Source of the DNA: a virus
Length of the DNA stretch: 42,538 nt
Direction: 5' to 3' (one strand)
Virus record (IMG/VR): IMGVR_UViG_3300046009_004474
Span: 1-42,538 of that record
Shown in pieces: positions 16,279 to 39,940 of the stretch (within the stretch, counting starts at the first letter, position 1; each line of letters begins with the position of its first letter). A program made the translations under genes and the position numbers. The notes beneath the pieces are model-generated. The model was not told the DNA's origin, did not search any database, and was given only the letters and a program-made list of their open reading frames with translations.

Positions 16279-16299
16279 TTTTAAAACCCTGACCCGAAG
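16279..16299 (+). promoter_or_regulatory. Putative phage RNA polymerase promoter A (spike unit)
   Basis: TTTTAAAACCCT (16279-16290), then GACCCGAA, then G at 16299 as the inferred start of transcription. It is one of six copies of the element in which a G always lies nine bases after CCCT. It resembles the upstream half of T3 and gh-1 promoters (A-C-C-C-T-C-A-C). It serves the 41-residue ORF and the tailspike. Confidence 0.78.
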
Positions 16300-16313
16300 G
16301 GGAAAGGAAAGAA

Positions 16314-16552
16314 CCTTAGGATACTACCTTAGGTAATACCTTAGGTGTTACTCAAGGTGAACCTAAGGTTACTCCTTAGGTTTGACCTTAGGATACAGAC
16401 CTTAGGTTTGTTAGTTAATGTTATTACTAAATAATAGTAATCCTAAGGTAATACCTAAAGAGATACCTCATGTCAGACCTTGGGAGTTACCTTAGGTCTT
16501 AACCTTGGGAGTTACCTTAGGTATGACACAAGTCTCTTTAGGGTTCCTTAGG
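16314..16552. repeat. Array of CCTWAGG heptamers
   Basis: The 311-base stretch between TerL and the next ORF contains eleven copies of CCTTAGG or its complement CCTAAGG within 239 bases, plus CCTTGGG and CCTAAAG variants. There is no ORF. T7 carries arrays of CCTAAAG just inside its terminal repeats, and this array follows the terminase gene as the T7 right-end array does. A role in replication or packaging near the end is possible. An untranslated leader for the spike unit is an alternative. Confidence 0.8.
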
Positions 16553-16589
16553 TGTTTATGTTCAATGATGATTGATTAAAGGATTATTC

Positions 16590-16715
16590 ATGACAAAGTT
16601 AAAACGTAAGAGGGTAGTGCTGGTAATCCTATCAGTGGTCTTTATTGTTTCAGAATGGGGTGAGTTGTCTGTAGATAGTTTACTTAGACTAGCAACAGTC
16701 TTGGTGGGTCTCTAG
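16590..16715 (+). CDS. 41-residue putative single-span membrane peptide
   Basis: ATG at 16590 has AAGGA seven bases upstream. The product starts with a basic segment (MTKLKRKR) followed by a hydrophobic helix (VVLVILSVVFIVSEW, residues 9-23) and a second weakly hydrophobic stretch (SLLRLATVLVGL). The N-in positive charge pattern suggests an inner-membrane peptide. It lies between TerL and the spike, where T7 has small gene 19.5. No homologue is recognised; a lysis accessory or superinfection function would be guesswork. Confidence 0.6.
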   Translation: MTKLKRKRVVLVILSVVFIVSEWGELSVDSLLRLATVLVGL

Positions 16716-16798
16716 GGATTTAACAGAAGGAATTACGACAGGTGTACTTAAGGGTGTTAGACCTTGAGTGGACTCAAAGATTAACTTAAGGAGATTTA

Positions 16799-19789
16799 AT
16801 GAGAATAGATACGGTGGCTACTAAGCCGACTCCAAGTCAGTTCGTAGGTAGATATATTGTAACAGATGAAGACCCCTCAGGGCTAGTGACCTATACGAAT
16901 ACAGCTGGGGAAGTAATCAAGGATGACATAGCTGATATTGAGTCAATGGAAGATTTTACCTTAGCTGGTGGTGTAGGTGTTCACACAGGTCCGGTTAGGA
17001 TTGACGGGGTTCTATATTGGTCTGATGGTACACAACTAGCAGCCAGTGGCGGGACTACATTACCAACAGTTTCTTACCCAAACCTACTAGAACCCGTCGA
17101 TTTTTACGGCGCACAAATCACTGATTATTTTGTTAGCAAATCGGATGGTAAAACCTACTTATTAGGCCGTTGCGATGATTCCAACTATGTCACTAATCTT
17201 GCGGTAGCCTGTAACAATCAAAGCGTTTACAGGTGGGAACGTAACAGCAGAACACCAGGTGTTACACCATCAGCACCAGTTTTGTTACGCAGTTTCAGTG
17301 CTGAGGCTTTATTTGTTAAACAGGGACCATTCTATTATCACGACCATGATTTGCTTGTTGTGCAAACTGCCAACACAGCTGGTTCTGATACTGCTACAAC
17401 AGCTTATCAATTATGGTTTAGTTGGGACCAGGGTGAAACCTGGATTCGTTACGACTTAGGTAATCGCTGGGCGGGTGGTGCTACTAAAGTCGGCACTATT
17501 CAAATGTTGAATAAGCAAACGCTGTCTGTGTTCAACATGCCCACAACAGGCCAAAAAGCGATTTTCTTTGGATGGTATAACACCGAAGGAACAGCTAACT
17601 TCGAAGAGATTCAGATTGTTGCCAGTTTCGACCGTGGGCAAACATTCAAAACACAATACGCTTGGAACTTGACTGCTACCAGCGACCTGAATAACCGGGT
17701 TCGTCACATTCATTTCTGTCAGTACAACAAATACAACGGCTGTTTATATGTCGGTTTTGGTGACGGTAAAGTCGATGCTACTACCGATAGTAACGGTGTG
17801 CTGTATGTCAACAAGTTCGGTATTCTTGAAGTTGACATGACTCAGTATGCCGGGTTTCCTGCTACGCCTGATTTGTATCTAAATGATTCTGCATTTAACA
17901 GTGGCGCATTTAAAGCATTGATTGGAAATCAAATATATCGTGCTGTGCAACTTGCTATTGATAGCACGGGTAAAATGTATTACGGGGCAGATCAGGTATC
18001 TAACCAAGACGAGCCAACCAAGTACAGCGGTTTTTATAGCTTTTCCAAGAACTTTGCGGGCCATACTAAATTAGGCGGCGATCTACCTGCTTGGTACGAC
18101 GAAGCCTGGAACAGTCATGCAATGGATGACGGTACGGTTATTTTCACAAGTTCACCGGCGATTGATGTTAATCGCGGCACAGTCACGATTTCAGCCGTAA
18201 ACGCAACAACAGATGAAATAACCCTAACATTTGACGTAACAAAAGGACGTAGAGAGATAGCTCAGGGTGAATGTATTTGGCTAACGGGTACGGGCGCTCC
18301 TGGTGGTACTGTCATTACATCCGGCGCGGCTGTCGCGTATTACTGGCTTATTAAAACTGGCACTAATACGGCAAAACTGGCAATCAGTCCGAAACATGCA
18401 GAAAAAGGCATAGCGGTTGATTTGACCAATACCACAGCGGGCGCAACCGTAAACTTTATGGAAGCCAAAGATATTAGCATTTATGCCAGCACTGACGGTG
18501 CTAATGCCTATCGTATTGGTTTGCACAGATTGAGTTCGACAGCGGAAGGTGTGAACATTCAAGGTATTTTCGACCTGAATAATGAGCTATATCTGACAAC
18601 ATCAGGCGGCGCTGCTACTAACGCGCGTAAATCCGCACGGGCAACCTCAGTATCAAGGTTTAGTAACTTAGTGCCTGGACAAGTACCCACACCTGTCGTA
18701 CATCCGACTTATTTTATAGCCACTACTGGTACAAATGTTGGCTCTACAGAGGCATTAAAAGGTGGTTTTTATCCCTGCACAGCAATGGCAGACCCTAACT
18801 TTTTGTTAAGAGCATCCCCGGCAACCCAGGTCGGTTGTGGTTGTCGTGTGCAGATAGCAGCAGGCACTTACACAACACCAAGAACAACGCTTCGCGCGGA
18901 CAATCCTATTACACTAGATTTGCGAGCCTGTTCTTTCGGTACACCTGTGCAAGTGTGGGGCGCTGGTAAAGACCTAACAATATGGGAGCATGATACAGCG
19001 GCGATTTATCACATTCAGTCTACTGTTCGTGCGGCTGGTGGTTCTACGGCTCTCAACCTAGAGTTTTACAACCTACACCTAAATAGCTTAGCTAATGCTG
19101 CCACGACTACAGAGCGAATCATTAGGCACGATGCCGAAAACAATTACATGAAGTTCTATAACGTGCGCATTGGTGATGGTAGCGGTAACTTCCACCATAT
19201 TAACGGCGGCAATAATCAGGTGTCGCTATTGCAGGGCACAGAGGTTATACCAAGCCAAACAGGCACAAGTGCATCGGCTTTTTATAACCGGACTGGCATC
19301 AGCTACGCATTGGAAATTAAAGGCGCTGTTATTGAGAAAGGATACAAAGGCATTTTGTCTAATGATGTATTCACACAGCCTGTAATATGGGACATTGACC
19401 ATGCTGCATTCCATCGGTTCGGTAATCGTGGGATTGATATAACTGTTGCATTGCCATTAACTGCAAACTCAAACATTACTAACACTATTATCGCCAGTGA
19501 TGCTGTTGGCTCAAATTTAGCGGTTAGTGATGCTGGAAGTGGGTTTGATTGGAATGACGGGCAAGTTAATAACAATGCAATATGGACTGAGTTCGGTACT
19601 AAGGTCAGTCCTGCAAGTGTTGCTAGTGCAAGTGATGCTTCGGTTGCAAGCTATGCCTCTCTACAGGTAGTACCTGGTGGAAAGCACACAGTTGCTACTG
19701 ATGCAACAGCCTCAGTGTTAAACGGACGGTCAGCAAATCTAGTGTCATTTGGCGGCGAGCTGACTGTCAAAAACATCGGACCATTCTAG
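16799..19789 (+). CDS. Tailspike / receptor-binding protein with Asp-box and beta-helix-like regions
   Basis: This 996-residue protein starts with a strong ribosome site (AAGGAGA). Residues 1-85 look like a virion-anchoring head. From about 90 the sequence resembles a beta-propeller with sialidase-type Asp boxes: FSWDQGETW (about 206-214), ASFDRGQTF (about 275-283) and the weaker ASTDGANAYR (about 564-573). The C-terminal third (VQIAAGTYTTPRTTLRADNP, LNLEFYNLHLNSLANA, VIWDIDHAAFHRFGNRGIDI) has the repeating pattern of a right-handed beta-helix, as in polysaccharide-degrading spikes. From about base 17050 the DNA becomes richer in GGC, GCG and CGC codons than the surrounding phage genes, so the receptor-binding part looks transferred. 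No catalytic residues can be assigned with confidence. Confidence 0.82.
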   Translation: MRIDTVATKPTPSQFVGRYIVTDEDPSGLVTYTNTAGEVIKDDIADIESMEDFTLAGGVGVHTGPVRIDGVLYWSDGTQLAASGGTTLPTVSYPNLLEPVDFYGAQITDYFVSKSDGKTYLLGRCDDSNYVTNLAVACNNQSVYRWERNSRTPGVTPSAPVLLRSFSAEALFVKQGPFYYHDHDLLVVQTANTAGSDTATTAYQLWFSWDQGETWIRYDLGNRWAGGATKVGTIQMLNKQTLSVFNMPTTGQKAIFFGWYNTEGTANFEEIQIVASFDRGQTFKTQYAWNLTATSDLNNRVRHIHFCQYNKYNGCLYVGFGDGKVDATTDSNGVLYVNKFGILEVDMTQYAGFPATPDLYLNDSAFNSGAFKALIGNQIYRAVQLAIDSTGKMYYGADQVSNQDEPTKYSGFYSFSKNFAGHTKLGGDLPAWYDEAWNSHAMDDGTVIFTSSPAIDVNRGTVTISAVNATTDEITLTFDVTKGRREIAQGECIWLTGTGAPGGTVITSGAAVAYYWLIKTGTNTAKLAISPKHAEKGIAVDLTNTTAGATVNFMEAKDISIYASTDGANAYRIGLHRLSSTAEGVNIQGIFDLNNELYLTTSGGAATNARKSARATSVSRFSNLVPGQVPTPVVHPTYFIATTGTNVGSTEALKGGFYPCTAMADPNFLLRASPATQVGCGCRVQIAAGTYTTPRTTLRADNPITLDLRACSFGTPVQVWGAGKDLTIWEHDTAAIYHIQSTVRAAGGSTALNLEFYNLHLNSLANAATTTERIIRHDAENNYMKFYNVRIGDGSGNFHHINGGNNQVSLLQGTEVIPSQTGTSASAFYNRTGISYALEIKGAVIEKGYKGILSNDVFTQPVIWDIDHAAFHRFGNRGIDITVALPLTANSNITNTIIASDAVGSNLAVSDAGSGFDWNDGQVNNNAIWTEFGTKVSPASVASASDASVASYASLQVVPGGKHTVATDATASVLNGRSANLVSFGGELTVKNIGPF

Positions 19790-19875
19790 TGTGGTGTTTA
19801 GGTGTGACCTTGGGTTGCTTGATTTTTGTTAGAAAAATTTGAAAGCCTATCTGATAGTAAGCAGCGCAGCAATCC

Positions 19876-19950
19876 CCCCTTGGGCCTCCTTTGGTTCTAC
19901 CTGAGGGTGGTGGCTGATGCTGCCAGTGTGGAAGGGACTCACCCAAGGGG
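19876..19950. repeat. Long-range 9-bp inverted repeat enclosing about 57 bases
   Basis: CCCCTTGGG (19876-19884) is the exact reverse complement of CCCAAGGGG (19942-19950). Short helices can form inside (CCTC with GAGG, TGGC with GCCA). No T tract follows, so a simple terminator is unlikely. It could be a structured RNA or a feature of the genome end. Confidence 0.5.
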
Positions 19951-20021
19951 CACACTAAGTAGTAAGTGATTGATTTACTTAGTTTTGCACCTGATATGGG
20001 ATCAGCTGGTTGTAGTAAATG

Positions 20022-20064
20022 AACCACCTCGAGGTTGCTTTGAGTGATCTTGAGGTGGTTTTTT
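20022..20064 (+). terminator. Rho-independent terminator ending the late region
   Basis: AACCACCTC (20022-20030) pairs with GAGGTGGTT (20052-20060) and runs straight into a T tract. It separates the spike unit from the early region and is the expected end of late transcription. Confidence 0.9.
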
Positions 20065-20144
20065 ATGTTATAATATAACATCACACTATTCATTGTTCTC
20101 TGTTTGTTCTTGTTTTTTGGTTTTATCGGTTTCTGCATTAATTA

Positions 20145-20194
20145 AACACTGTATCTAGTGTTCCACCAAACGATTCACCACTATATCTAGTGTT
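20145..20194. repeat. Two palindromic ATCTAGTGTT elements
   Basis: AACACT-GTATCT-AGTGTT (20145-20162) is a perfect 6-bp inverted repeat around a 6-base spacer. A second copy, CACT-ATATCT-AGTG followed by TT (20179-20194), lies 32 bases downstream and runs into the palindrome GTGTTAACAC (20190-20199). The spacing of about three helical turns and the shared AGTGTT half-site (also in the operator at 21921) fit protein-binding sites, but no binding protein is shown. Confidence 0.45.
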
Positions 20195-20200
20195 AACACA

Positions 20201-20320
20201 CCCAAAGTAACACCTGATGCTTTACCCAAAGTAACACCTGATGCTTTACCTAAAGTAACACCTGATGCTTTACCTTGGGTAACACCTGATGCTTTACCTT
20301 GGGTAACACCTGATGCTTTA
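20201..20320. repeat. Five 24-bp direct tandem repeats
   Basis: Units start at 20201, 20225, 20249, 20273 and 20297. The last 17 bases of each unit (GTAACACCTGATGCTTTA, allowing one base at the edge) are invariant, while the first six change stepwise: CCCAAA, CCCAAA, CCTAAA, CCTTGG, CCTTGG. The array lies between the late terminator and the first early promoter. Iteron-like replication elements or T7-style end-proximal repeats are the obvious candidates. The open frame on the opposite strand is only the repeat read through. Confidence 0.9.
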
Positions 20321-20580
20321 CCCATGAAGCAAAAGTGCATCAAATGATCTACCTATGAAGCACACCCAAGGCCACACCAAAAGTCACCCATTAAACCAAC
20401 GTAGACGCTCATCACGCTCGACCTGATACAACACAGGTAGGGTAGCCAGGGTTGGACACTGGGTAAGCCTTAAATGCTTGTATGATAACTCTAGGATTGC
20501 ATCTATATTGATGACACTGGGTTACATTGTGTGGACCTTGGATAGCACTGGTTACACCTTAAGCTTGATTAAATTTATTG

Positions 20581-20609
20581 TTGACAAACTGAAACAATCG
20601 GCGGATAGT
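20581..20609 (+). promoter_or_regulatory. Host sigma70-type early promoter
   Basis: TTGACA (20581-20586), a 17-base spacer and GATAGT (20604-20609). It is the first strong host promoter before the early ORFs at 20666 and 20814, and corresponds in position to the T7 early A promoters. Confidence 0.75.
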
Positions 20610-20665
20610 TCGCACCAAGCCAGCAAACAAGGCGAAACATCTAGCAACTAACAAGGGGAATAACA

Positions 20666-20803: not shown

Positions 20804-20813
20804 GGTGAATGAA

Positions 20814-21062: not shown

Positions 21063-21065
21063 CAG

Positions 21066-21094
21066 TTGACAAACAAAAACAGTTACACTAAGAT
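21066..21094 (+). promoter_or_regulatory. Host sigma70-type promoter for the ardA-like gene
   Basis: TTGACA (21066-21071), a 17-base spacer and TAAGAT (21089-21094). It lies 42 bases before the ardA-like start codon and immediately after the previous stop. Confidence 0.75.
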
Positions 21095-21136
21095 CAACCA
21101 CGAAATAACATTAACTCAAACCAATAGGTAAACAAA

Positions 21137-21646: not shown

Positions 21647-21655
21647 CACATATAG

Positions 21656-21865: not shown

Positions 21866-21920
21866 ACAGTTACAACAAAAACTGTTAATCAACTCATATT
21901 AATCTATTTTTAATTATCAT

Positions 21921-21959
21921 AGTGTTGACTTCATGTTACAGTGGTCTAAAGTCAACACT
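21921..21959 (+). promoter_or_regulatory. Promoter embedded in a 10-bp inverted repeat (probable operator)
   Basis: AGTGTTGACT (21921-21930) and AGTCAACACT (21950-21959) are perfect reverse complements 19 bases apart. The left arm contains the -35 box TTGACT (21925-21930). A -10-like TAAAGT (21947-21952) follows at 16 bases and overlaps the right arm. A protein bound to both arms would block RNA polymerase. The next gene encodes a winged-helix regulator, so autoregulation is the natural reading. Confidence 0.8.
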
Positions 21960-21986
21960 CTAATAATTCAAAAGGGGAGTCATCCA

Positions 21987-22319
21987 GTGTATAACCTTAT
22001 CCAGATTCTAAAGACATTTAGAGACATTAATCCCGATGCCACGGTGGCAGCTCTTCTATTATTCTGTCTGATTAAAAGAGACGGGAACACACACGTATCC
22101 GACCTAATACAAAACAGTGGTCTAAACAAAACAACAGTCAGTAGAAACATTGATATATTAACTGCTAGAGGCAGAGGCGCTAAGCAAGGATTAGGACTCA
22201 TACAAGACATGGAAGACCCTGTAGACAGACGTTACAAGGTAGTAACATTCACTGAAAAAGGCAAAACAATACACGATTCCCTTTTGCAAAACCTAGGAAA
22301 GTCCCGTGTCTCTCATTAA
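21987..22319 (+). CDS. MarR-like winged-helix regulator, candidate lysogeny regulator
   Basis: The chosen start is GTG 21987 because AAAGGGGAG lies seven bases upstream; an in-frame ATG at 21933 would begin inside the operator. The 110-residue product has a winged-helix layout: HVSDLIQNSGLNKTTVSRNI is the helix-turn-helix (about residues 37-56), followed by a basic wing ending in DPVDRRYKVVTFTEKGKTIH, typical of MarR-type proteins (D-x-R-x-x-x-x-x-L-T-x-x-G). It overlaps the integrase start by 14 bases, so the two are probably co-transcribed and coupled. It may act as repressor or as directionality factor. No classical CI/Cro or Xis gene is seen elsewhere. Confidence 0.8.
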   Translation: MYNLIQILKTFRDINPDATVAALLLFCLIKRDGNTHVSDLIQNSGLNKTTVSRNIDILTARGRGAKQGLGLIQDMEDPVDRRYKVVTFTEKGKTIHDSLLQNLGKSRVSH

Positions 22320-23364
22320 GAAATCAAATAGTCCTTACTGGTGTTACGACATAAAGCTCTCACCAGATCAAGCCAAGCGCCTTGGGTATAGTTCACCCAG
22401 GTTTCGTGGTTCAACCAAGACCACCAACAAACAGGAAGCCCAGTCTGTTGAAGCATCAATCAGAATGTCCATTCTAGCGGGTCTATACACGCCAGGAAGG
22501 CCCGTGCGGGACGCTATGGGTATTACCCTACGTGATGCCCTTGGACGCTGCTTAGTGGAGCTGTGGAAAGACCACAAGAGCTATAAAAGTTTCTATCTGG
22601 TGAGCGTCCGTGCTATTGATAAGGACTCGATAAGTAGTTACCAAATAGGGAAAGTTGATTCTAATTTAATCAATGATTGGATTAACCTAAAGTTGACCCA
22701 AGGAAACAGTAAGTCAACCATAAACCAAAAACTAGGATTGATAAAGAACGCTATAGACCGAGCGTCAAACGTTTGGGGTCTCGAAGTTCAACATGTAGAC
22801 TGGTCATCATTAAAGCTTAAGAAAGCAACCAAGAGCCATTCCGTGTGGTTCACAGAAGAGATGGAACAACAGATTTTTAATAGACTGGCTGAGTTGGGCC
22901 GTCAAGACATGATAGATTTGTTTACTGTCCTAGCCGATGTCGGGGCTAGATTCAGCTCAATTATTAATTTACATAAAAATGATGTGGATTTAACAGGAAG
23001 AACCGTTACACTACGAGACACAAAGAATGGTGATGATATAACCTTACCTCTCACATCAAGAGCAGCTGAGGTTTTCTCTCGCCGTATCCATAATGAATAC
23101 CCTTTCCACGATCTAACCTATTCAGCTGCTAGACAGTGCTGGGATAGACTCAGAGACCACTTCGGATGGCCCAGTGGGGAAGGCTATAAGATTCACGCAC
23201 TAAGACACACCTGTGGTACTCGTCTAGCCCAAGCTGGGGTGGACATCAGGGTTATCCAGAAGTGGCTTGGTCATCGTGATATACGCCAAACAGCTCGCTA
23301 TACACAGGTTATAGATGAGCAGTTGGTATCTGCAATGTATAAATTAGAGGGAAATAATGACTGA
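22306..23364 (+). CDS. int: Tyrosine-family phage integrase
   Basis: This 352-residue protein carries the full catalytic set of tyrosine recombinases: R215 (DVGARFSSIINL), K240 (DTKNGDD), H297 and R300 (HALRHTCGTRLAQAG), H323 (LGHRDI) and Y332 (ARYTQV). The N-terminal part (1-60) fits an arm-binding domain and 75-170 a core-binding SAM-like domain. The start GTG lies inside the regulator gene. Downstream, a tRNA-Thr 3' end flanked by repeats forms a probable attP. Integrases are exceptional among T7-like phages but are known in some marine podoviruses that integrate into tRNA genes. Confidence 0.96.
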   Translation: MSLIKKSNSPYWCYDIKLSPDQAKRLGYSSPRFRGSTKTTNKQEAQSVEASIRMSILAGLYTPGRPVRDAMGITLRDALGRCLVELWKDHKSYKSFYLVSVRAIDKDSISSYQIGKVDSNLINDWINLKLTQGNSKSTINQKLGLIKNAIDRASNVWGLEVQHVDWSSLKLKKATKSHSVWFTEEMEQQIFNRLAELGRQDMIDLFTVLADVGARFSSIINLHKNDVDLTGRTVTLRDTKNGDDITLPLTSRAAEVFSRRIHNEYPFHDLTYSAARQCWDRLRDHFGWPSGEGYKIHALRHTCGTRLAQAGVDIRVIQKWLGHRDIRQTARYTQVIDEQLVSAMYKLEGNND

Positions 23365-23599: not shown

Positions 23600-23602
23600 T
23601 CG

Positions 23603-23623
23603 TTTTAAAACCCTTACCCTAAG
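23603..23623 (+). promoter_or_regulatory. Putative phage RNA polymerase promoter F (variant)
   Basis: TTTTAAAACCCT (23603-23614), TACCCTAA, then G at 23623. It differs from the consensus in having T instead of G after CCCT. It is the first phage-type promoter of the map and would transcribe through the attachment region toward the RNA polymerase gene. Confidence 0.65.
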
Positions 23624-23625
23624 CA

Positions 23626-23662
23626 GGTGGTGATACACTGAGTCCTAACAGTGTGTCCCACC
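23626..23662 (+). other. Strong hairpin three bases after promoter F
   Basis: GGTGG-t-GATACACTG (23626-23640) pairs with CAGTGTGTCCCACC (23649-23662), a 14-bp stem with one bulged T and an eight-base loop. The inferred transcript start is at 23623, so the RNA would begin with this hairpin. There is no T tract, so it may be a stabilising 5' structure, an RNase III site or part of the attachment region. Confidence 0.7.
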
Positions 23663-23968: not shown

Positions 23969-23989
23969 TTTTAAAACCCTGACCCGAAG
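23969..23989 (+). promoter_or_regulatory. Putative phage RNA polymerase promoter B (upstream of its own gene)
   Basis: TTTTAAAACCCT (23969-23980), GACCCGAA, start G at 23989. It is 159 bases upstream of the RNA polymerase start codon, which implies positive feedback once some polymerase is made. Confidence 0.78.
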
Positions 23990-24003
23990 GGCAGAGGATA
24001 CAA

Positions 24004-24088
24004 ACCTTAGGATACTACCTTAGGTCTAACCTTAGGTGTTACCCAAGGTCAATCATTTAGTCCACCTTAAGTCTAACCTTAAGTACCT
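24004..24088. repeat. CCTTAGG / CCTTAAG repeats in the RNA polymerase leader
   Basis: Three CCTTAGG copies and two CCTTAAG copies follow promoter B. The first part (23966-24049) is nearly the same as 16276-16358 behind promoter A. The second part shares the 22-base block ACCTTAAGTCTAACC-TTAAGTAC with the leader behind promoter C. No ORF lies here. The 548 bases from 23600 to 24147 thus hold promoter F, a hairpin, the attachment region, promoter B and these repeats. Confidence 0.75.
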
Positions 24089-24147: not shown

Positions 24148-26574
24148 ATGAATAAAGATGCTTTAGAAAGACAGTTGGAATTAGAAGAGTATTCCGTAGA
24201 GTTAGGTATAGCTCGCTACCGTAAGGAACGTCTTGAGTATCACCTTAAGTCACCCTCTGAGCAGAAAGAAGCTGACTCTCAGCCTGGGAATATATTAATC
24301 AAGACTTACTTATTACCTTTGTCAGAGACCATCCAGGCATGGAAGGACGACATCACTGTAGGTAAAGCTAGAAAACAAGCATTGATGATTAAGTTCCTCA
24401 ATCAACTTGATTCAGACACCATAGCTTTCATCACGCTAAGGGGTGTCATTAACTGTCTCCATAAGTCAGTAACCTTACAAGAAGCTTGTGGTCACATCCT
24501 GACGCATCTAGTTGAGGAGATTAACTTTAGGAAACTTAGAGATGCCGCCCCAGGTTACGCTGTGGTGCTGGAGAATAAGTTCAAGAAGTCAACCAGTGCT
24601 ACACACAGGAAGAACGTAACAAGAGTAGCTATGGAGAACGCTGAGGTTAAAACCTTGTCTATTGACCTGTCAGAACGTCAGCGTCTTACTAATCTGTTGA
24701 TCGGGTTTGTCATTGAGTCAACTGGCTTAGTGGTGTTGGAAACAAGGAAGAGAGGGAAGAATGATTCAGCTGTAATTGTGTCGCCAACACCGAGAGTCCT
24801 AGAGTGGTTAGAATCAGCACACTCTAAGTGCGAACTAAGATCACCCTTTCTGTTACCTATGTTAGTTAAGCCTAGACCTTGGGTGTCACCTAAAGACGGT
24901 GGATACTTAACTGGTAAGATCAAACTATCATTAATCAAATCCCACGATGAAGACTACATAGGGGAGTTAGATAACTGGGATATGCCTGAGGTTTACAAAG
25001 CTGTCAACGCTATACAAGAGACACCTTGGAGAATCAATAAGAACGTACTCAATACTATGCAAAGTGTGTGGGAGGGAAATCTTACGCTTGGAAAGTTACC
25101 AATGCGGGACTGTCTTGAGTTACCAACTAAACCATTCGACATAGATACCAATGAAGAAGCTAAGAAAGAATGGAAACAAAGAGCAGCTGTAGTTCACGAA
25201 CAAAACAACAAGTTGGTATCCAAACGTATTGCTCTAAGTCAGAAGCTTTGGGTTGCCAACAAGTTTAAAGATGAGGAAGTAATCTACTATCCTCATGTCC
25301 TTGACTGGAGGGGTCGTGTCTATCCAGCAGCGGGTGTTGGTACAGTGTGTCCTCAAGGTGATGACACAGGGAAAGCACTTTTAGAGTTCGCTGAGGGTAA
25401 GACCTTAGGTGAAGACGGTGCTTACTGGTTAGCGTGTCACATTGCTGGATTGTTTGGTGTTGATAAGGTTCCCTTTGATGATCGTGTTCAATGGGTAGAA
25501 GATCATTCAACTATCCTGTCAATGTGCGCCTTAGACCCACTTGAGTACACCTTCTGGACCAAAGCAGATAAACCTTATCAAGCCTTAGCTGCTATCTATG
25601 AGTGGGAAGGCTATCAGACCCAAGGTATCAACTTTGTGTCTCACCTTCCTATTGCAATGGATGGCTCTAACAATGGCGCACAGCATCTGTCAGCTATGGG
25701 TAGAGACAGCAGAGCAACAGTTAATCTGGTTCCTTGTGAGAAACCTCAGGACATCTATATGGATGTGGCTAATGAGGTAGCTAAGATTGTCGATGAGAAA
25801 GCAGCTGAGGGGGACGCTATGGCTGAACTTTGGGCAGGTAAGATCACTAGGTCGATCGCTAAGAGACCCGTGATGACACTTTGTTATGGCGCTACTGTCA
25901 ATGGTATGTCGAATCAGATCATAGAGGAAGTGAAGAAAGCTAAGGCTGATGGTAAACCTATCTTACTGACTGATGAGATTGTTCCTGCTTGTAATTGGTT
26001 AGCTGGTGTCATGTATCCTGCTATTGGAACCATCACAACAGCAGCGGTAACCATCATGGACTGGCTTAAGAACACAGCTAAGGTTGCAGCTTCAAACGAC
26101 CTACCAGTCCATTGGGAGACACCCGTAGGATTCCCTGTGCTTCAACACTACAGGACATTAAACCTTAAGGTTGTCGACGCTGTTATTGCTGGGTGTCGCA
26201 TACAGGTGTCCATAGGTGAAGAGACAAGAGAACTTAACAGAAGAAGACAGGCAGCAGGTATCAGTCCTAACTTTGTTCATTCATTAGACTCAGCTCATCT
26301 AATGAAAACTGTCAATGCAATGGTTGATAGAGGTGTCACCAGTTTTGCTATGATTCATGATTCATATGGAACACATGCAACTGATACGGATTTACTTAAT
26401 GTTGTACTCAGAGAAGAGTTCATTAAGTTGTATTCTGATGATGTACTTGAGGAGTTCAGACAGCAAATCATTAAGCAGTTGCCTGATGAGTTGGCCGAAC
26501 AGATCAAGGAGATCCCGCCTAAAGGTGCGCTGGATATATCTGTAATCAAAGATTCGCAGTATTTCTTTGCCTGA
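24148..26574 (+). CDS. Single-subunit DNA-directed RNA polymerase (T7 gp1-like)
   Basis: This 808-residue enzyme (T7 883) transcribes middle and late phage genes. Hallmarks are DWRGRVYPAAG (T7 DWRGRVYA), the palm motif AMDGSNNGAQHLSAMGRD (around 505, with the first catalytic Asp), RSIAKRPVMTLCYGATVNG (the O-helix with Lys and Tyr, near 570-588), PNFVHSLDSAHLMKTV and IHDSYGTH (second catalytic Asp near 737). The C-terminus YFFA mirrors the T7 FAFA foot. The specificity-loop region precedes PNFVHS and differs from T7, fitting a distinct promoter. It is the first gene downstream of the attachment site and is followed by a strong terminator. Confidence 0.97.
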   Translation: MNKDALERQLELEEYSVELGIARYRKERLEYHLKSPSEQKEADSQPGNILIKTYLLPLSETIQAWKDDITVGKARKQALMIKFLNQLDSDTIAFITLRGVINCLHKSVTLQEACGHILTHLVEEINFRKLRDAAPGYAVVLENKFKKSTSATHRKNVTRVAMENAEVKTLSIDLSERQRLTNLLIGFVIESTGLVVLETRKRGKNDSAVIVSPTPRVLEWLESAHSKCELRSPFLLPMLVKPRPWVSPKDGGYLTGKIKLSLIKSHDEDYIGELDNWDMPEVYKAVNAIQETPWRINKNVLNTMQSVWEGNLTLGKLPMRDCLELPTKPFDIDTNEEAKKEWKQRAAVVHEQNNKLVSKRIALSQKLWVANKFKDEEVIYYPHVLDWRGRVYPAAGVGTVCPQGDDTGKALLEFAEGKTLGEDGAYWLACHIAGLFGVDKVPFDDRVQWVEDHSTILSMCALDPLEYTFWTKADKPYQALAAIYEWEGYQTQGINFVSHLPIAMDGSNNGAQHLSAMGRDSRATVNLVPCEKPQDIYMDVANEVAKIVDEKAAEGDAMAELWAGKITRSIAKRPVMTLCYGATVNGMSNQIIEEVKKAKADGKPILLTDEIVPACNWLAGVMYPAIGTITTAAVTIMDWLKNTAKVAASNDLPVHWETPVGFPVLQHYRTLNLKVVDAVIAGCRIQVSIGEETRELNRRRQAAGISPNFVHSLDSAHLMKTVNAMVDRGVTSFAMIHDSYGTHATDTDLLNVVLREEFIKLYSDDVLEEFRQQIIKQLPDELAEQIKEIPPKGALDISVIKDSQYFFA

Positions 26575-26630
26575 ATAGTTGACAATGACTGAGAGTAAGT
26601 AACAAGTAATTAGTAAGAGTAAGTAAACGG

Positions 26631-26667
26631 AAGACCTTGGGTGTGAACTCAGGGTCTTTTCTTTTTT
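26631..26667 (+). terminator. Rho-independent terminator after the RNA polymerase gene
   Basis: AAGACCTTGGGT (26631-26642) pairs over 12 bp (with G-U pairs) with ACTCAGGGTCTT (26647-26658) around a GTGA loop, followed by TTCTTTTTT. It corresponds to the T7 early terminator TE, although placed directly after the polymerase gene. Its T tract runs into promoter D. Confidence 0.92.
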
Positions 26668-26684
26668 AAAACCCTGACCCTTTG
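26664..26684 (+). promoter_or_regulatory. Putative phage RNA polymerase promoter D
   Basis: TTTTAAAACCCT (26664-26675), GACCCTTT, start G at 26684, with initial transcript GAGGGAGAC, which resembles the GGGAGA start of T7/T3 transcripts. It overlaps the T tract of the upstream terminator: host transcription would stop where phage transcription begins. Confidence 0.78.
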
Positions 26685-26721
26685 AGGGAGACACTTTTAG
26701 TTAACTTTAGGAGATTCTTAG

Positions 26722-27390
26722 ATGACACAAAGAAATATTGTGGTCAGTTTGTTTGATGTTAGTGGGAAGATGGTTGAGCCGTGGTTGAACCAAGGTTATG
26801 AGTGTTGGATTGTGGATATTCAACACCCACCGGCGTATTCAACATGCGGCGTGACAACAGAAGGAAACCTTCACAAAGTACATTATGATTTGACGAAACC
26901 TTGGCTACCACCGTTTGATAAAAATAGGATAGCTTTTGTAGCAGCTTTCCCGCCTTGCGATCACTTAGCCGTATCAGGGTCTAGATGGTTTACGGGAAAA
27001 GGTTTAAGAAAACTAAGCACAGCAGTTGAAATGTTCGCTACAGCTGCGGAGTTCTGTGAGTGGGCTAACGCTCCTTATCTTATCGAGAACCCTGTTAGCA
27101 CCATCAGTAGTTACTGGCGAAAACCAGACCACACATTTAGCCCGCACCACTTCACAGGTTACAACTTAGAAGATAACTACACAAAGAAAACCTGTCTATG
27201 GGTTGCTGGGGGTTTTGTTATGCCAGAAAAATTTGAATTAGATGATCTACCACCACCAGATGACCGGATACATAAATGTCCGCCTGGTCCTGATAGACAC
27301 AACATACGGAGTGCTACTCCAACAGGTTTTGCACATGCGGTTTATTTAGCAAACAGTCAAAACACAAAGCAGGAGAAACACAATGCTTGA
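26722..27390 (+). CDS. C5-cytosine methyltransferase-like phage protein
   Basis: This 222-residue protein has a compact C5-methyltransferase layout. A motif I-like start ([15 protein letters not shown], residues 7-21) is followed by VDIQHP as the acidic end of strand 2. Motif IV is [12 protein letters not shown] with the candidate nucleophile C79, and the motif VI position has IENPVS (ENP at 122-124 in place of the usual ENV). The target-recognition region is very short. Similar proteins are widespread in phages and usually annotated DNA cytosine methyltransferase; activity here is uncertain. It might protect phage DNA from host restriction together with ArdA. AGGAGA precedes the start. Confidence 0.75.
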
Positions 27391-27460
27391 AACAGCAGTA
27401 ATCGTTATAGCAGCAACGCTGTTCACAATCAGAATCTTTATGGGAGACCTTGATGGTTAG
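27383..27460 (+). CDS. 25-residue hydrophobic mini-protein
   Basis: ATG 27383 overlaps the methyltransferase stop and has AGGAGAAAC upstream. The product, [20 protein letters not shown] and a short acidic tail, is a single hydrophobic helix. Its stop overlaps the start of the pentapeptide gene by eight bases, so it is embedded in a coupled chain of genes. It may be a small membrane protein or serve only to couple translation. Confidence 0.5.
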
Positions 27461-27989
27461 TATAAAACATAGGTTGACAGGCGAGAACCTATTCACGCTG
27501 TACACCGAAGGTAGCACTTTAAAAGGCGCTGTTGAAGCTTCGGTTAGTATGGGTGCTAACCTTAGGGATGCTGACCTTAGGGGTGCTAACCTTGGGGGTG
27601 CTAACCTTGGGGGTGCTAACCTTGGGTGTGCTAACCTTAGGGGTGCTGACCTTGGGGGTGCTGACCTTGGGGGTGCTAACCTTGGGGGTGCTAACCTTAG
27701 GGGTGCTGACCTTGGGGGTGCTTACCTTGGGGGTGCTTACCTTAGGGGTGCTGACCTTAGGTGTCATGGTGATATGCGCTACATCTTCACCATACAGCTA
27801 GATATGTGGCCCATAGGGTTCACCAAAACAACCCTGCAAATCGGTTGTCAGAGACATTCAATAGATTCTTGGCGAAACTTCACTGATATAGAAATTAACA
27901 GGATGGAACCCGATGCCCTTGCATGGTGGAAACGCTGGAAGGTTCCCTTGTTTTGCATCATTGATGAACGACTAAAGGATGCACCATGA
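27453..27989 (+). CDS. Pentapeptide-repeat protein
   Basis: The chosen start is ATG 27453 (a TTG three bases upstream is less likely). The 178-residue product has an N-terminal strand region (1-33), 14 pentapeptide repeats of type A-(N/D/Y)-L-(G/R)-G (about 34-103) forming a right-handed beta-helix, and a conserved-looking C-terminal domain ([20 protein letters not shown], then WWKRWK). Known pentapeptide proteins such as Qnr/MfpA mimic DNA and protect gyrase, but repeat number and surface here do not prove that. The repeat DNA (27554-27763) is 14 near-identical 15-base units and may expand or contract. Its 3' end overlaps the next ORF (ATGA). Confidence 0.88.
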
Positions 27990-28463: not shown

Positions 28464-28525
28464 CACAGGTTGACCACACTGAGGATGACTACTGGTTAGA
28501 GCTTGCTGAACTGTTTTGTTTTTAA
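28367..28525 (+). CDS. 52-residue zinc-ribbon (DnaJ-type CxxCxGxG) protein
   Basis: ATG 28367 has AAGGAG upstream. The product has two CXXCXGXG motifs, CPTCNGTGE (residues 8-16) and CSQCRGSGV (24-32), the DnaJ-type zinc-binding pattern, followed by an acidic tail. Small phage proteins of this kind are common; the function is unknown, possibly protein or nucleic-acid binding. Its 3' end lies inside promoter E. Confidence 0.72.
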   Translation: MSEEDNDCPTCNGTGEGRSDYTSCSQCRGSGVTQVDHTEDDYWLELAELFCF

Positions 28526-28540
28526 AACCCTGACCTTTCG
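28520..28540 (+). promoter_or_regulatory. Putative phage RNA polymerase promoter E (replication unit)
   Basis: TTTTAAAACCCT (28520-28531), GACCTTTC, start G at 28540. The initial transcript GAGGGAGACA, then UUUCG, then UGUCCC can fold into a short 5' hairpin. It lies upstream of SSB and the whole DNA-metabolism block. Confidence 0.78.
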
Positions 28541-28582
28541 AGGGAGACATTTCGTGTCCCACCTACAGCTACAGGACAGACA

Positions 28583-30169: not shown

Positions 30170-30178
30170 GGAAACATT

Positions 30179-33075: not shown

Positions 33076-33079
33076 CCCA

Positions 33080-34900: not shown

Positions 34901-34910
34901 CAATTAACCA

Positions 34911-35831: not shown

Positions 35832-36403
35832 TGGAAGTCCTTGACGTAGAAGAGTACGGTTTATCCAAAGCGTTATTAGGTATGGCCTTATCTTACTGGG
35901 ATGGTAAAGAACCATTACACCTGTGGTGGACACCTGAGAGACAACAGAAGGCTTTACATAGAGCTAACCTCTTAGCGTTCAAGCAAGGTGGTCATAATAA
36001 GTTTCTTGAGTCAATCGGCGTGTGGATAACCATGAGAGGAACCAGAGGTTTCTGGCAAGAGTTTGACACCTATCGTGTTGGTGTTACCAAACAATCAGCA
36101 AGCACCATGCACACCTTAAGTAAACGTCAGCTGACACCTGAGGATTTCCATCAGAGTACAGATGAAGAGGTCATTAGGATTCTCAATGGGTTGATCGTGA
36201 GTGGTGCTGATGTTCAAACCCTCAAGGCTAACTTACCTGAGGGTTTCTATCAGATGCGTGTTGTATTTACTAACTACAAAACACTACAGAACATGGTCTA
36301 CCAAAGGTCTAAGCATAGACTGAAAGAGTGGCCTGCTTTTATTGGTCAAATAGTTGACAAGCTGGAATACCCTCAGTTTGTCATCCAATCAACGGAGTCT
36401 TAA
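35831..36403 (+). CDS. 190-residue protein, possible remote ThyX-like fold
   Basis: The gene overlaps the MazG-like stop by one base. Two stretches recall flavin-dependent thymidylate synthase: ITMRGTRGFWQEFDTYRVGV followed by TKQSASTMHTLSKR (position of the R-H-R-x-x-S-x-N-E-x-S motif) and the late YQRSKHRLKEWPAFI helix. The canonical ThyX motif itself is absent, so enzymatic activity is doubtful. Proteins with the D-T-Y-R-x-G-V-x-K-Q-S-x-S-T-M-H string occur in other phages as uncharacterised products. The neighbours (MazG-like, reductase) suggest a nucleotide role. Confidence 0.6.
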   Translation: MEVLDVEEYGLSKALLGMALSYWDGKEPLHLWWTPERQQKALHRANLLAFKQGGHNKFLESIGVWITMRGTRGFWQEFDTYRVGVTKQSASTMHTLSKRQLTPEDFHQSTDEEVIRILNGLIVSGADVQTLKANLPEGFYQMRVVFTNYKTLQNMVYQRSKHRLKEWPAFIGQIVDKLEYPQFVIQSTES

Positions 36404-36405
36404 GT

Positions 36406-36606
36406 ATGAAAGTTATTTATAAAAAAGTGATGAGTGAACTCTTATTTGCCGCCATAAGGCAAGCTGCTAAGGAGGGAAAGGAGATTGAATACATCGAGTT
36501 AACACAAAAGGAGTTTAGCTTACTAAAGTCGGAGTCGCCACTGACCAACCGTACAGGTGGTTATCTGTTCTCAGGTGTTCCCCTGGTGATCGAGCAGGAA
36601 TGGTAA
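36406..36606 (+). CDS. 66-residue hypothetical protein
   Basis: This small protein has an N-terminal helix (SELLFAAIRQAAKEGKEIEY) and strands at the end (GGYLFSGVPLVIEQEW). It starts two bases after the previous stop and ends six bases before the exonuclease gene. No family is recognised. Confidence 0.68.
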   Translation: MKVIYKKVMSELLFAAIRQAAKEGKEIEYIELTQKEFSLLKSESPLTNRTGGYLFSGVPLVIEQEW

Positions 36607-36612
36607 CTAACA

Positions 36613-37380
36613 ATGGCAACACATGAGAAGGTAACTTTATTACTCGACTCAGACATCATCGCCTATCAGATTGCCTCAGTGAATCAACAGGATATTGACT
36701 GGGGTGATGACATACAAACCAGAAGTCTCAACCTGAACAGAGCCTTAGAGCAAGCTGAGGAAATCGTTGAGAGTCTCTTAGATAAACTCCAAGCAAACAC
36801 GGCTATTGTTTGTCTAACAGATAAGACTAACTGGCGTAAGGAAGTCCTACCGACCTACAAGAGTAATCGTAGTGGTGTTGAAAAACCTGAGTTATTAAAC
36901 ATTGTTAAGGATTACTTAGCTGGTCGGTATGACAGCTTTATCCGTCCATCATTGGAAGCAGATGATGTGATGGGAATCCTAAGTACACACCCAACGTTAA
37001 TCCCAGGGAAGAAGATCATTGTCTCAGAAGATAAAGACATGAAGACAATCCCTGGGTGGCTGTTCAATCCACGCAAGGATGACAAACCTAAGCACATCCG
37101 TGAGGAAGAAGCTGACAGATACCACCTGTATCAATCCCTAATAGGTGACTCTACAGATGGTTATAAGGGGTGTCCTGGGGTTGGACCTAAGGGTGCTGAT
37201 AGGGTTTTAGATAGTGTGTCCCCCAGTGACTGGTGGAAAGCCATAGTCGAGCAGTATGAAAAGAAAGGTTTAACTGAGGGTGATGCTTTGGTTCAGGCTA
37301 GGGTGGCTCGTATCTGTAGAGCTGATGATTATGATTTCAAAAAGAAGGAGGTTTTATTGTGGAACCCAAGAGAAGACTAA
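36613..37380 (+). CDS. 5'-3' exonuclease (gp6-like, FEN/RNase H family)
   Basis: This 255-residue protein (T7 gp6 is 300) shows the FEN-family acidic residues: LLLDSDIIAYQ (about 8-18), LEADDVMGI (about 115-123), SEDKDMKTI (about 139-147), and the helix-hairpin-helix GDSTDGYKGCPGVGPKGADR (about 179-198). It removes RNA primers and degrades host DNA to supply nucleotides. It is followed, with a 22-base overlap, by the dATP/dGTP diphosphohydrolase-like gene. Confidence 0.93.
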   Translation: MATHEKVTLLLDSDIIAYQIASVNQQDIDWGDDIQTRSLNLNRALEQAEEIVESLLDKLQANTAIVCLTDKTNWRKEVLPTYKSNRSGVEKPELLNIVKDYLAGRYDSFIRPSLEADDVMGILSTHPTLIPGKKIIVSEDKDMKTIPGWLFNPRKDDKPKHIREEEADRYHLYQSLIGDSTDGYKGCPGVGPKGADRVLDSVSPSDWWKAIVEQYEKKGLTEGDALVQARVARICRADDYDFKKKEVLLWNPRED

Positions 37381-37868
37381 GGGTGGGAGATAAGGTCAAA
37401 GTTATTGATGTTAACTTTTTTCCTAATCATGGGCCAGGATACGGAGGACAAATAGCTACTGTCCACGGACTATGTGACCATACTGAGTGCCACGATTTTC
37501 TGTTTGCTGACGGTAATATCCACTCAATGCTCCCTTATAGATACGAAGTTTTAGGAGAGGATGTAGCACAGGAGACACCTGATGTAGGCAAGAAGTTTGA
37601 CCAAGGGAAGCTTAGGTTTGACCTAGTACCACCAGAGTTTGAACAAGAGGTTGCTAAAGCTTTCACCTACGGAGCAAACAAGTACGGAGACCGTAACTGG
37701 GAGAAGGGGATAGACCCTAATCGTCTATATGCCGCAACTAGAAGACACCTACATTCGTGGTTCACAGGTGAACTCTTGGATGAAGAATCCGGTAACTATC
37801 ACTTAGCACACGCAGCAGCTTGTATAGCAATGATGCTAACGTTCGACATAAAGGAATTGAATGAATAA
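37359..37868 (+). CDS. Fusion of an SH3-like N-domain with a dATP/dGTP diphosphohydrolase-type domain
   Basis: GTG start with AAGGAGG upstream, inside the exonuclease gene. Residues 1-65 (LRVGDKVKVIDVNFFPNHGP, then YEVLGED) look like a small SH3-type beta barrel. Residues 77-169 match the dATP/dGTP diphosphohydrolase N-terminal type (DUF5664): KFDQGKLRFDLVPPEFEQEV, FTYGANKYGDRNWEKG, RRHLHSWFTGELLDEESGNY, HLAHAAACIAMML. Related enzymes hydrolyse purine dNTPs to monophosphates, and in Z-genome phages remove dATP. No PurZ gene is seen here, so a general pool-adjusting role is more likely. It overlaps the reductase start by 8 bases. Confidence 0.8.
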   Translation: MEPKRRLRVGDKVKVIDVNFFPNHGPGYGGQIATVHGLCDHTECHDFLFADGNIHSMLPYRYEVLGEDVAQETPDVGKKFDQGKLRFDLVPPEFEQEVAKAFTYGANKYGDRNWEKGIDPNRLYAATRRHLHSWFTGELLDEESGNYHLAHAAACIAMMLTFDIKELNE

Positions 37869-39837
37869 GAATAATCAACCATCAACACGCGCACAGATCA
37901 TTACCAGAAGAACCTATAACAGACCACGCAATGATACGGGCACAGTGTTTGAAACATGGGAACAAACAGTTGCACGAGTTATTGACCATCAGTTCTGGCT
38001 GTGGGAAAGAGCTAAAGGTTCTGAACTAACAGTTGAAGAACTCCGTGAGTTAGACACCTTAGAACGCTTGATGTTAGAACGTAAGGTATTAATGTCAGGT
38101 CGCTCATTGTGGTTAGGTGGTACTGAAATATCACGAACCAGAGAATCCTCAATGTTCAACTGTAGCTTCACCCATGTTGAGACAGTGTATGACGCAGTGG
38201 ATTGTCTTTGGTTGTTACTTCAAGGGTGTGGTGTGGGTTTCAAAATGATTCGTGGAACCTTGAATGGCTTTATGAAACCCATCAAGGACATTGAAGTAAT
38301 CAGATCAACAAGGACTGAAAAGGGTGGACAAGAATACAACACAGAAACCTGGGATTCAGAATCAAAGACCTGGACTATCACAGTCGGAGATAGCGCAGAG
38401 GCTTGGGCCAAGAGCATCGGTAAGATGCTTGCTGGTAAGTATCCCGCCAATAAACTTGTACTCGATTTCTCAAATATACGCCCTGCTGGGGAGCGTCTAA
38501 AGGGTTACGGTTGGATTAGCTCAGGTGACGAAGCGTTTGCCAAAGCTTTTAAAGCAGTTGCTGACATCATGAATAAACGAGCAGGAAGCCTGTTGTCGGC
38601 TCTAGATATACTTGATGTACTCAACTGGTTGGGTACTGTTCTATCGTCCCGTAGATCAGCTGAGATTGCCTTAATTGATGCTGATGACCCTGAGTGGAAA
38701 GAGTTTGCTGTAGCTAAGAAAGAGTTCTGGATGCACGATAACTTTCATCGCTGTCAATCAAACAACTCTATTGTGTTTTACAGTAAGCCCTCTAAGGAGA
38801 AACTCAAGGAAATCTTCACGTTGATGGAAGAAGCTGGAGGTTCAGAACCAGGATTCATTAACGGTCAAGCAGCATTGAAACGTGCGCCTTGGTTTAAAGG
38901 TTCAAACCCTTGCTGTGAAATCCTATTGGGTAATAAATCGTTTTGTAATCTTACTGAATGTGACATAGGGAAGTTCAAAGGTGACTCAGCAGGTTTACGT
39001 GAAGCACTCACTATCGCTGCTAGAGCAAACTACCGACAAACCTGTGTTGATCTTCGTGATGGTATCCTGCAAGAAGCATGGCATTTGAACAATGAGTTCT
39101 TACGTCTATGTGGGGTTGGTCTAACAGGTATTGCACGGAGAGGAGACCTGAGTGCTTATGATTACCAAGAGTTACAACGAGTCACCACAAGTGCTGCTTA
39201 CAGTATGGCTGATGAGTTGGGCTTACAGCACCCTAAGAATGTAACTACGGTTAAACCTAGTGGAACCTTAAGTAAAATTATGGATACAACAGAGGGAGTT
39301 CATAAGCCTCTTGGTAGATACATATTTAACAACGTTAACTTCTCTAAGCATGACCCTATAGTTGACAAGCTGAGACAGTCTGGATACAACGTATTCAATA
39401 ACCCAGCAGACCCTGAGGGAGTCCTAGTGACTCTACCTGTGGAGTGGGCTGATGTTGAGTTCACCAGTGTCAACGGTGTTGAGGTTAACACTGAGACCGC
39501 TATAGAGCAGCTTGAGAGATACAAGCTAATCCAGAACAACTGGAATCAGCAGAACACCTCAGCAACCATTAGCTATTCACCTGAAGAAGCTGATGAGATT
39601 GTTGACTGGTTACTGTTGAACTGGGATTTGTATGTTGGTGTGTCGTTTCTTTATCGAGCTGACCCAACGAAAACCGCAGCTGACCTTGGGTATCTGTACC
39701 TACCACAAGAGGTTGTAACCAAAGAAGTGTACGAAGCGTATGTTGCTAAGTTGCTCCCTGTTGATATTGATTCTGCTAATTCATTTGAAGAAATCAGAGA
39801 ACAGGAATGCGCTGGTGGCGTATGTCCGGTTAAGTAG
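37861..39837 (+). CDS. nrdJ: Class II (adenosylcobalamin-dependent) ribonucleotide reductase, monomeric type
   Basis: This 658-residue protein reduces ribonucleotides to deoxyribonucleotides using B12. Visible features are SMFNCSF with redox C101, the finger-loop NPCCEILLG with the radical Cys (near 351), GLTGIARRGD, VKPSGTLSKIMDTTEGVHKP, and the C-terminal CAGGVC pair (C650, C655) that is re-reduced by thioredoxin. The CX4C tail and length resemble the monomeric triphosphate reductase of Lactobacillus leichmannii. No small subunit or NrdD activase is present, supporting class II. It relies on host cobalamin. Phage-encoded class II reductases are frequent in aquatic podoviruses. Confidence 0.92.
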   Translation: MNKNNQPSTRAQIITRRTYNRPRNDTGTVFETWEQTVARVIDHQFWLWERAKGSELTVEELRELDTLERLMLERKVLMSGRSLWLGGTEISRTRESSMFNCSFTHVETVYDAVDCLWLLLQGCGVGFKMIRGTLNGFMKPIKDIEVIRSTRTEKGGQEYNTETWDSESKTWTITVGDSAEAWAKSIGKMLAGKYPANKLVLDFSNIRPAGERLKGYGWISSGDEAFAKAFKAVADIMNKRAGSLLSALDILDVLNWLGTVLSSRRSAEIALIDADDPEWKEFAVAKKEFWMHDNFHRCQSNNSIVFYSKPSKEKLKEIFTLMEEAGGSEPGFINGQAALKRAPWFKGSNPCCEILLGNKSFCNLTECDIGKFKGDSAGLREALTIAARANYRQTCVDLRDGILQEAWHLNNEFLRLCGVGLTGIARRGDLSAYDYQELQRVTTSAAYSMADELGLQHPKNVTTVKPSGTLSKIMDTTEGVHKPLGRYIFNNVNFSKHDPIVDKLRQSGYNVFNNPADPEGVLVTLPVEWADVEFTSVNGVEVNTETAIEQLERYKLIQNNWNQQNTSATISYSPEEADEIVDWLLLNWDLYVGVSFLYRADPTKTAADLGYLYLPQEVVTKEVYEAYVAKLLPVDIDSANSFEEIREQECAGGVCPVK

Positions 39838-39898
39838 ATTGTGAACACCCAAGCCTCTATTTAAAGCTCAAACTGGGTGGCCTGCTAGGGACGAATTA

Positions 39899-39914
39899 AT
39901 GACAAGGATGTCAT
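39899..39914 (+). terminator. Short hairpin before promoter C (possible weak terminator)
   Basis: ATGACA (39899-39904), loop AGGA, TGTCAT (39909-39914), then CTTAATTTT. The stem is AT-rich and the T tract short, so termination would be weak. It lies between the reductase gene and the late promoter. Confidence 0.4.
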
Positions 39915-39919
39915 CTTAA

Positions 39920-39940
39920 TTTTAAAACCCTGACCCGAAG
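39920..39940 (+). promoter_or_regulatory. Putative phage RNA polymerase promoter C (late structural unit)
   Basis: TTTTAAAACCCT (39920-39931), GACCCGAA, start G at 39940 (GGGGGAAGG). It is the only such element between the reductase and TerL, so it likely drives portal, scaffold, capsid and tail genes. It is followed by CCTTAAG repeats shared with the RNA polymerase leader. Confidence 0.78.

Follow-up and report, generated by a model that had tools for sequence, protein, structure and literature searches.

A six-copy promoter-type element and its match to the specificity loop of the phage-encoded RNA polymerase in a T7-like virus

The window analyzed here, that is, the whole 42,538-nt stretch of IMG/VR virus record IMGVR_UViG_3300046009_004474, contains exactly six copies of the string TTTTAAAACCCT, at positions 16279, 23603, 23969, 26664, 28520, and 39920, together with a gene for a T7-type single-subunit RNA polymerase of 808 aa (24148..26574, plus strand; Pfam RNA_pol, 6.7e-114). 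From its gene set, the window is assigned to a T7-like phage that is uncultured and probably temperate. All six copies are located on the plus strand and run in the direction of the genes, while no exact copy was present on the minus strand and a reversed-pattern control gave zero matches. Downstream of the string come, in each case, (G/T)ACC, four bases that vary and a G that does not, the latter being the ninth base past CCCT in 6/6 copies. The sequences further downstream are GACCCGAAG at 16279, 23969, and 39920, TACCCTAAG at 23603, GACCCTTTG at 26664 and GACCTTTCG at 28520; the base directly 3′ of CCCT is G at five sites and T solely at 23603. The coordinates and this arrangement had been given in the original prediction, which interpreted the element as a phage promoter with a fixed start G and an upstream half resembling those of phages gh-1 and T3; coordinates and arrangement both proved exact.

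For assessing how sharply these sites stand out, a 27-nt position matrix was built from the six copies and scanned across the whole genome, with the best scores from each of 60 random first-order genomes as background. The copies score between 34.8 and 41.6 bits (26.3 to 39.0 bits in leave-one-out scoring), while the best non-copy position only reaches 10.3 bits, compared to random-genome maxima with a mean of 10.3, a standard deviation of 2.0 and a highest value of 16.2 bits. As this next-best score equals the random-genome mean, the genome-wide scan, which the original prediction had proposed, yields neither weaker copies nor a promoter before the capsid gene. Searching for the 12-mer at up to two mismatches gave 18 matches versus 5.85 expected (standard deviation of 2.5), but the 12 inexact ones are not promoters according to the full matrix. 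Likewise, nine exact matches to the 16-mer TTTTAAAACCCTGACC in IMG/VR were judged to be chance occurrences, as none of the nine shows the downstream half and none has a polymerase homologue in the stretch examined.

Copy 1 (16279..16305, plus strand, exact TTTTAAAACCCTGACCCGAAGGGG, 40.4 bits) starts at the base after the stop codon of the large terminase subunit gene (TerL, 14653-16278, Pfam), which is also the position of the promoter phiOR in T7. Copy 2 (23603..23629, plus strand) lies distally upstream of the RNA polymerase gene and, at 34.8 bits (26.3 bits in leave-one-out scoring), is divergent, with T after CCCT and a GCAGG start region; it is possibly a weak promoter. Copy 3 (23969..23995, plus strand, 37.2 bits) is found 179 bases upstream of the polymerase gene, an autoregulatory position in which a motif is likewise placed in most relatives, and overlaps the 3′ end of a 94-aa open reading frame (ORF) whose TGA stop lies inside the motif. 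Copy 4 (26664..26690, plus strand, 38.8 bits) begins 90 bases past the polymerase gene, ahead of a gene for a DNA methyltransferase (26722-27390, PHROGs), and directly follows a strong intrinsic terminator (26629..26660, plus strand; 14-bp hairpin, –19.3 kcal/mol, z –4.15). The T run of this terminator merges into copy 4, so that early transcription can stop at the very point where the following unit starts. Copy 5 (28520..28546, plus strand, 36.7 bits) precedes the run of genes for a single-stranded DNA-binding protein, RusA, an amidase and a primase-helicase, whereas copy 6 (39920..39946, plus strand, 41.6 bits) follows a class II-like ribonucleotide reductase gene (37861-39837, Pfam), stands before the portal (40425-41966, Pfam) and capsid genes and is the only copy able to serve the structural genes.

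The polymerase shows 35% identity with T7 RNA polymerase (solved relatives 1aro/1cez) and has kept all five catalytic residues checked (equivalents of D537, R627, K631, Y639, and D812). The closest enzymes in the phage collection, at about 42%, are those of Caulobacter phage S2B and “Mycobacterium phage jiawei.” From alignments, the specificity loop is assigned to 26137..26244 (plus strand), with V675, D677, R684, and Q686 corresponding to T7 R746, N748, R756, and Q758 (T7 numbering is used in the following). In T7, N748 contacts promoter bases –10/–11, R756 base –9 and Q758 base –8 (PMC5937735), and Arg746 is placed at the –6/–7 template bases (PMC6486633). The D at position 748 is common to the window polymerase, T3, and gh-1 and goes with CC at –11/–10, whereas the replacement of C by G after CCCT, compared to T3 and gh-1, is accompanied by a replacement of R by V at position 746. 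As R746 is conserved in T7, T3, SP6, and K11 and the R746A mutation inactivates T7 RNA polymerase (PMC11477551), a natural V746 needs a matching promoter change, as seen in the window.

For comparing loop and promoter more broadly, promoter motifs were assembled for 24 other T7-like phages, and the loop residues at 746, 748, 756, and 758 were set against the promoter bases; with the start purine, a four-base spacer and the AT-rich box as guides, registers were set manually, and the covariation table does not include the loci L040, L046, L059, and L061, whose motif registers were ambiguous (L numbers are our designations). Given in the order of these four residues, the loop R, D, R, Q is associated with the block CCCTC at –11 to –7 in T3, gh-1, L028, and L047, V, D, R, Q with CCCTG in the window, Q, D, R, Q with CCCTT in jiawei, S, D, R, R with ACCCA in L034, D, N, R, R with TGCCA in L049, R, E, R, R with CCCCC in L051 and L053, R, I, R, D with CACGC in L083, I, R, R, D with TCAGG in L045, V, K, R, E with GGCGG in L027, A, R, R, E with GTCGG in L036, T, N, R, Q with TGCTG in L107 and Q, E, R, V with CCCAT in S2B. 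Accordingly, base –7 can be read from residue 746 (R with C in 16 phages, V, I, A or T with G, Q with T, S or D with A) and base –8 from residue 758 (Q with T, R or K with C, D, E, F or Y with G, L, A or V with A). In the 24 phages, all information in base –7 is obtained from residue 746 and all information in base –8 from residue 758, which was equalled in 0/20,000 shuffles. Screening of about 718 polymerase columns put position 746 on top for –7, position 758 for –8 and position 748 for both –10 and –11, and these first ranks are unchanged when the window is left out and S2B added. The top columns were not picked by the design of the screen and coincide with the known T7 contacts (PMC5937735; PMC7948468). 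Applied to the window, V746, D748, R756, and Q758 predict CCCTG, which is the block observed.

The rule linking V746 with G was first seen in the window and in L045, and L027, searched next, also showed G. Two further cases read after the rule had been written down agree with it, namely L107 (T746, G) and S2B (Q746, T, with three copies of AATTACCCCATG); another S2B repeat, CTTGCGTCAATCCAT, had first been taken as the promoter of this phage but was dropped, since it recurs in the early region as well and the separate motif AATTACCCCATG fits the code. Moreover, L034 and L028, whose polymerases are 91% identical, have different residues at 746 and 758, and this is mirrored in the corresponding bases of their promoters. 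On the tree, 7 changes of residue 746 stand beside 7 of base –7 and 15 changes of residue 758 beside 14 of base –8, so that the changes are repeated ones. For base –9, which hardly varies, residue 756 is not the best predictor. In the polymerase tree, L027 and the window are sisters, so that their V-G pairs may represent one event instead of two independent ones; further cases of G at –7 are those of L045 (I), L036 (A), and L107 (T). The permutation p-values are optimistic and overstate significance, because the phages are related and the registers hand-set, and for the window itself, the –7 base was chosen by means of the CCCT block and the likeness to L027. On balance, we lean toward regarding position 746 as a natural specificity switch for promoter base –7, which together with 748 and 758 would allow the promoter of an unknown T7-like polymerase to be predicted from its loop, and toward regarding V746 with its GAC core as an orthogonal set. 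The window polymerase and its element very probably form a cognate pair, with a –7 base that is excluded by the usual core (CACTA) and would be missed by searches for a CAC core. The comparison yields a residue-to-base code that can be tested, along with some 20 additional consensus promoters of uncharacterized polymerases. Matching phage polymerases to promoters is already known as a general approach (reportedly Zhu et al., NAR 2025, cited in PMC12272871), and some of the code may therefore be in print.

Compared to known systems, the window element resembles the T3/gh-1 group with its CCCTCAC core, as it has CCCT at –11 to –8 in combination with D748, R756, and Q758. The promoters of T3 and of Pseudomonas phage gh-1 (the latter TTTAAAACCCTCACTATGGC) indeed contain ACCCTCAC, and the proposed likeness of the upstream half holds, one of the gh-1 promoters having an identical TTTAAAACCCT and the gh-1 polymerase also bearing D748, R756, and Q758. 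With T3 (ATTAACCCTCACTAAAGGGAGA type), the window shares the ACCCT block, these same three residues and a purine-rich start, copies 26664 and 28520 even carrying GGGAGA. However, the C at –7 and the R746 of this group are replaced in the window by G at five sites, T at 23603 and V in the polymerase, and the distance from the block to the G differs: in gh-1, with C after CCCT and R746, this spacer is one base shorter, and the G of T3, which has C at –7, is found 8 bases after CCCT versus 9 in the window. LUZ100 is an integrase-carrying T7-like Pseudomonas phage whose promoters (CAATTACCACACAGTTATGGA) are placed on either side of the polymerase gene and behind TerL, phi1 corresponding in position to copy 3 (23969) and phi8 to copy 1 (16279). 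Its polymerase has D748 and is 37% identical, but its promoter sequence is another one, with a CAC core and R746. A further parallel is locus L027 from IMG/VR, with a sister polymerase (46%), V746, a GAC core and two copies of its element (GGCGGACCCTAGGA) before and after the polymerase gene, while GGCG stands in place of CCCT, K748 and E758 are present in the loop and a four-base spacer leads to the G start. Besides, the promoter of cyanophage Syn5 (ATTGGGCACCCGTAA/G; PMC3950665) has ACCCG(T)AAG just upstream of the start, similar to ACCCGAAG in the window; with its GGG block, K748, a different polymerase loop and an enzyme only 28% identical, this weak likeness is likely due to chance or convergence.

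Less certain than the block itself is the exact start base. The G at the end of the element is invariant, as had been claimed, but its role as +1 is uncertain by one base. With CCCTG at –11 to –7 and a four-base spacer (CCGA and similar), the invariant G becomes +2 and the +1 bases are, in site order, A, A, A, T, C, and A, with T at 26664 and C at 28520, whereas a five-base spacer places G at +1 in 6/6 copies. Taking the fixed G as +1 shifts the block by one, and the match between residues and bases then fails at –7, –8, and –9. Only two settings reconcile the CCCTG block with the code: the fixed G at +2, or a melted spacer that exceeds that of T3 and close relatives by one base. YIMV22061, HTVC019P, L109, and L062 likewise have a fifth base ahead of the G; in L109, this base is C at three sites, pointing to a four-base spacer and a start at A there. 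If the element works, it is near certain that transcripts would begin within one base of the fixed G, and somewhat more likely that they would begin with A at +1 and G at +2 at the four A sites and with G at the other two (26664 and 28520).

Taken together, we consider it very probable, judging from sequence, that the six elements are middle/late promoters read by the phage’s own polymerase. As in T7-type promoters, the element has about 20 bases and is repeated in one orientation before transcription units, and its –11 to –7 block, with CCCTG in this register, matches the specificity loop. The site positions, upstream and downstream of the polymerase gene and after TerL, are equivalent to those of mapped LUZ100 promoters. 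Short complementary pairs (CCCGAAGGG, CCTTTCGAGG) are present at five sites, where CCC-GAA-GGG and CCT-TTCG-AGG could fold in RNA, so that terminators, RNA hairpins or RNA-processing sites might be considered, but such a pair is missing at 23603, the T run lies upstream and not downstream, the pairing bases vary while TTTTAAAACCCTGACC is fixed, which is the reverse of structural conservation, and the clear terminator of this area is the separate one at 26629-26660; a function at the RNA level is accordingly very improbable.

Only slightly less improbable is a repressor operator or silencer, in which the palindrome TTTTAAAA plus CCCT would be bound by another phage protein or by the MarR-like winged-helix transcription regulator (21933-22319, plus strand; Pfam HTH_27, 8.6e-07; PHROG transcriptional regulator, 1.2e-22) the sites then acting as dispersed operators in a temperate phage. 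Two copies lie upstream of the polymerase gene and relatives do possess, besides the promoter motif, a second dispersed intergenic repeat that is often palindromic. Yet, this palindromic element and the promoter motif are distinct sequences in the relatives, the conserved block tracks the polymerase specificity loop across phages and all six copies share a single orientation, with an asymmetric conserved part of up to 21 bases ending in a start-like purine run. Finally, recognition by the host polymerase or a second phage factor, instead of the 24148-26574 enzyme, is hardly credible, given that a scan shows no –35/–10 layout at the six sites and that the block exactly matches the loop residues of the phage enzyme.

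For transcription from the six promoters, we infer the start sites, the start base and the order of events as follows. The element would be composed of an AT-rich box (TTTTAAAA), the block CCCTG, AC, a short melted spacer and a purine-rich start (A or N, then the fixed G). In the major groove, CCCTG would be read by the specificity loop, with D748 recognizing CC at –11/–10, R756 C at –9, Q758 T at –8 and V746 G at –7. By analogy with T7 and LUZ100, the host polymerase may transcribe the early region, including the polymerase mRNA, from sigma-type promoters; a candidate is TTGACA-17-TAAGAT at 21066, before the gene for the antirestriction protein ArdA, although such matches are no commoner than chance in the window. 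The first phage polymerase would then arise from read-through and might amplify its own gene from 23969, perhaps also from 23603, and drive the genes for replication from 26664 and 28520, those for portal, capsid and tail from 39920 and the genome end from 16279. Flanking of the polymerase gene by promoters implies positive feedback. The MarR-like regulator adjoins a tyrosine integrase (22306-23364, plus strand; Pfam Phage_integrase, 1e-23), which by analogy suggests a control of lysogeny similar to that proposed for LUZ100 (PMC10134795).

The relatives were obtained by a profile search retrieving 80 polymerase-homologue loci in IMG/VR and 17 in bacterial genomes; searching with the single protein did not retrieve a relative, whereas a three-sequence alignment then succeeded. 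At many of these loci, motifs recur both near and far from the polymerase gene. Clustering of repeated 24-mers showed that related phages each have an own repeated element of like layout, namely CAATTACCACACAGTTATGGA in LUZ100, where ONT-cappable-seq had mapped 5′ ends to the very same sites (PMC10134795), AATTAACCCCCACTAATAGAGG in YIMV22061, GGTTGCACATAAGGATA in BB8 and TTACACTTTTAGATG in HTVC019P. With family-specific patterns, 13/15 relatives show a motif no more than 700 bases ahead of the polymerase gene and 15/15 one no more than 900 bases past it; in the two lacking the upstream motif by these patterns, L083 and L028, looser matching places it 138 and about 825 bases upstream, respectively. 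Scans of L038, L042-L044, L058, L108, L110, L112, L114, L115, and L119 gave no clear motif. The presence of the motif on both sides of the polymerase gene in most relatives suggests that T7-like phages with an integrase share a positive feedback loop, hitherto described for LUZ100.

The second dispersed intergenic repeat mentioned above, often palindromic, occurs in LUZ100 (L020), L034, L035, L029, L051, L045, L042, L043, L056, L107, L109, L113, and S2B (L016), examples being AGGCACGTTAACGTGC in L042 and L043, GGTGCAGTCACTGCACC in L109 and the TTCCACTAGCGCA type in LUZ100 and L034. It sits just after gene ends and is found in the early region too, and may serve temperate T7-like phages as an operator or a stoperator-like site; as an element different from the promoter motif, these palindromic repeats were set aside as promoter candidates. 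The polymerases of jiawei (L017, OR464703.1) and Caulobacter phage S2B share 61% identity and the gene order is common to both phages; a Mycobacterium host for OR464703.1 looks doubtful.

Among the other genes of the window are those for the major head protein (597-1526), tail proteins, an internal virion protein, a tail fibre, ArdA, DNA polymerase and exonuclease. For a 996-aa ORF in the early region (16799-19789), Pfam and PHROGs scans gave no match. The window ends carry a 130-base repeat (1-130 identical to 42409-42538) lying inside a gene, and the window is therefore a circularized assembly of about 42.4 kb. The true genome ends are unmarked in the record and probably lie near an array at 16300-16560. 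This array belongs to a gapped palindrome, CCTNAGG (mostly ACCTTAGGT), which is present 78 times in the window versus 14.4 expected from trinucleotides, the top of 64 such words, and forms dense arrays downstream of three of the six promoters (16279, 23969, and 39920) at 16313-16560, 24004-24085, and 39956-39990. The enrichment is absent from most relatives; the arrays recall the CCTAAAG arrays near the ends of the T7 genome. Close to the methyltransferase gene of this ArdA-bearing phage, a 179-aa ORF (27450-27989) with tandem AN/DLRG-type units built from GCTAACCTTGGGGGT repeats looks like a pentapeptide-repeat protein, possibly a DNA mimic.

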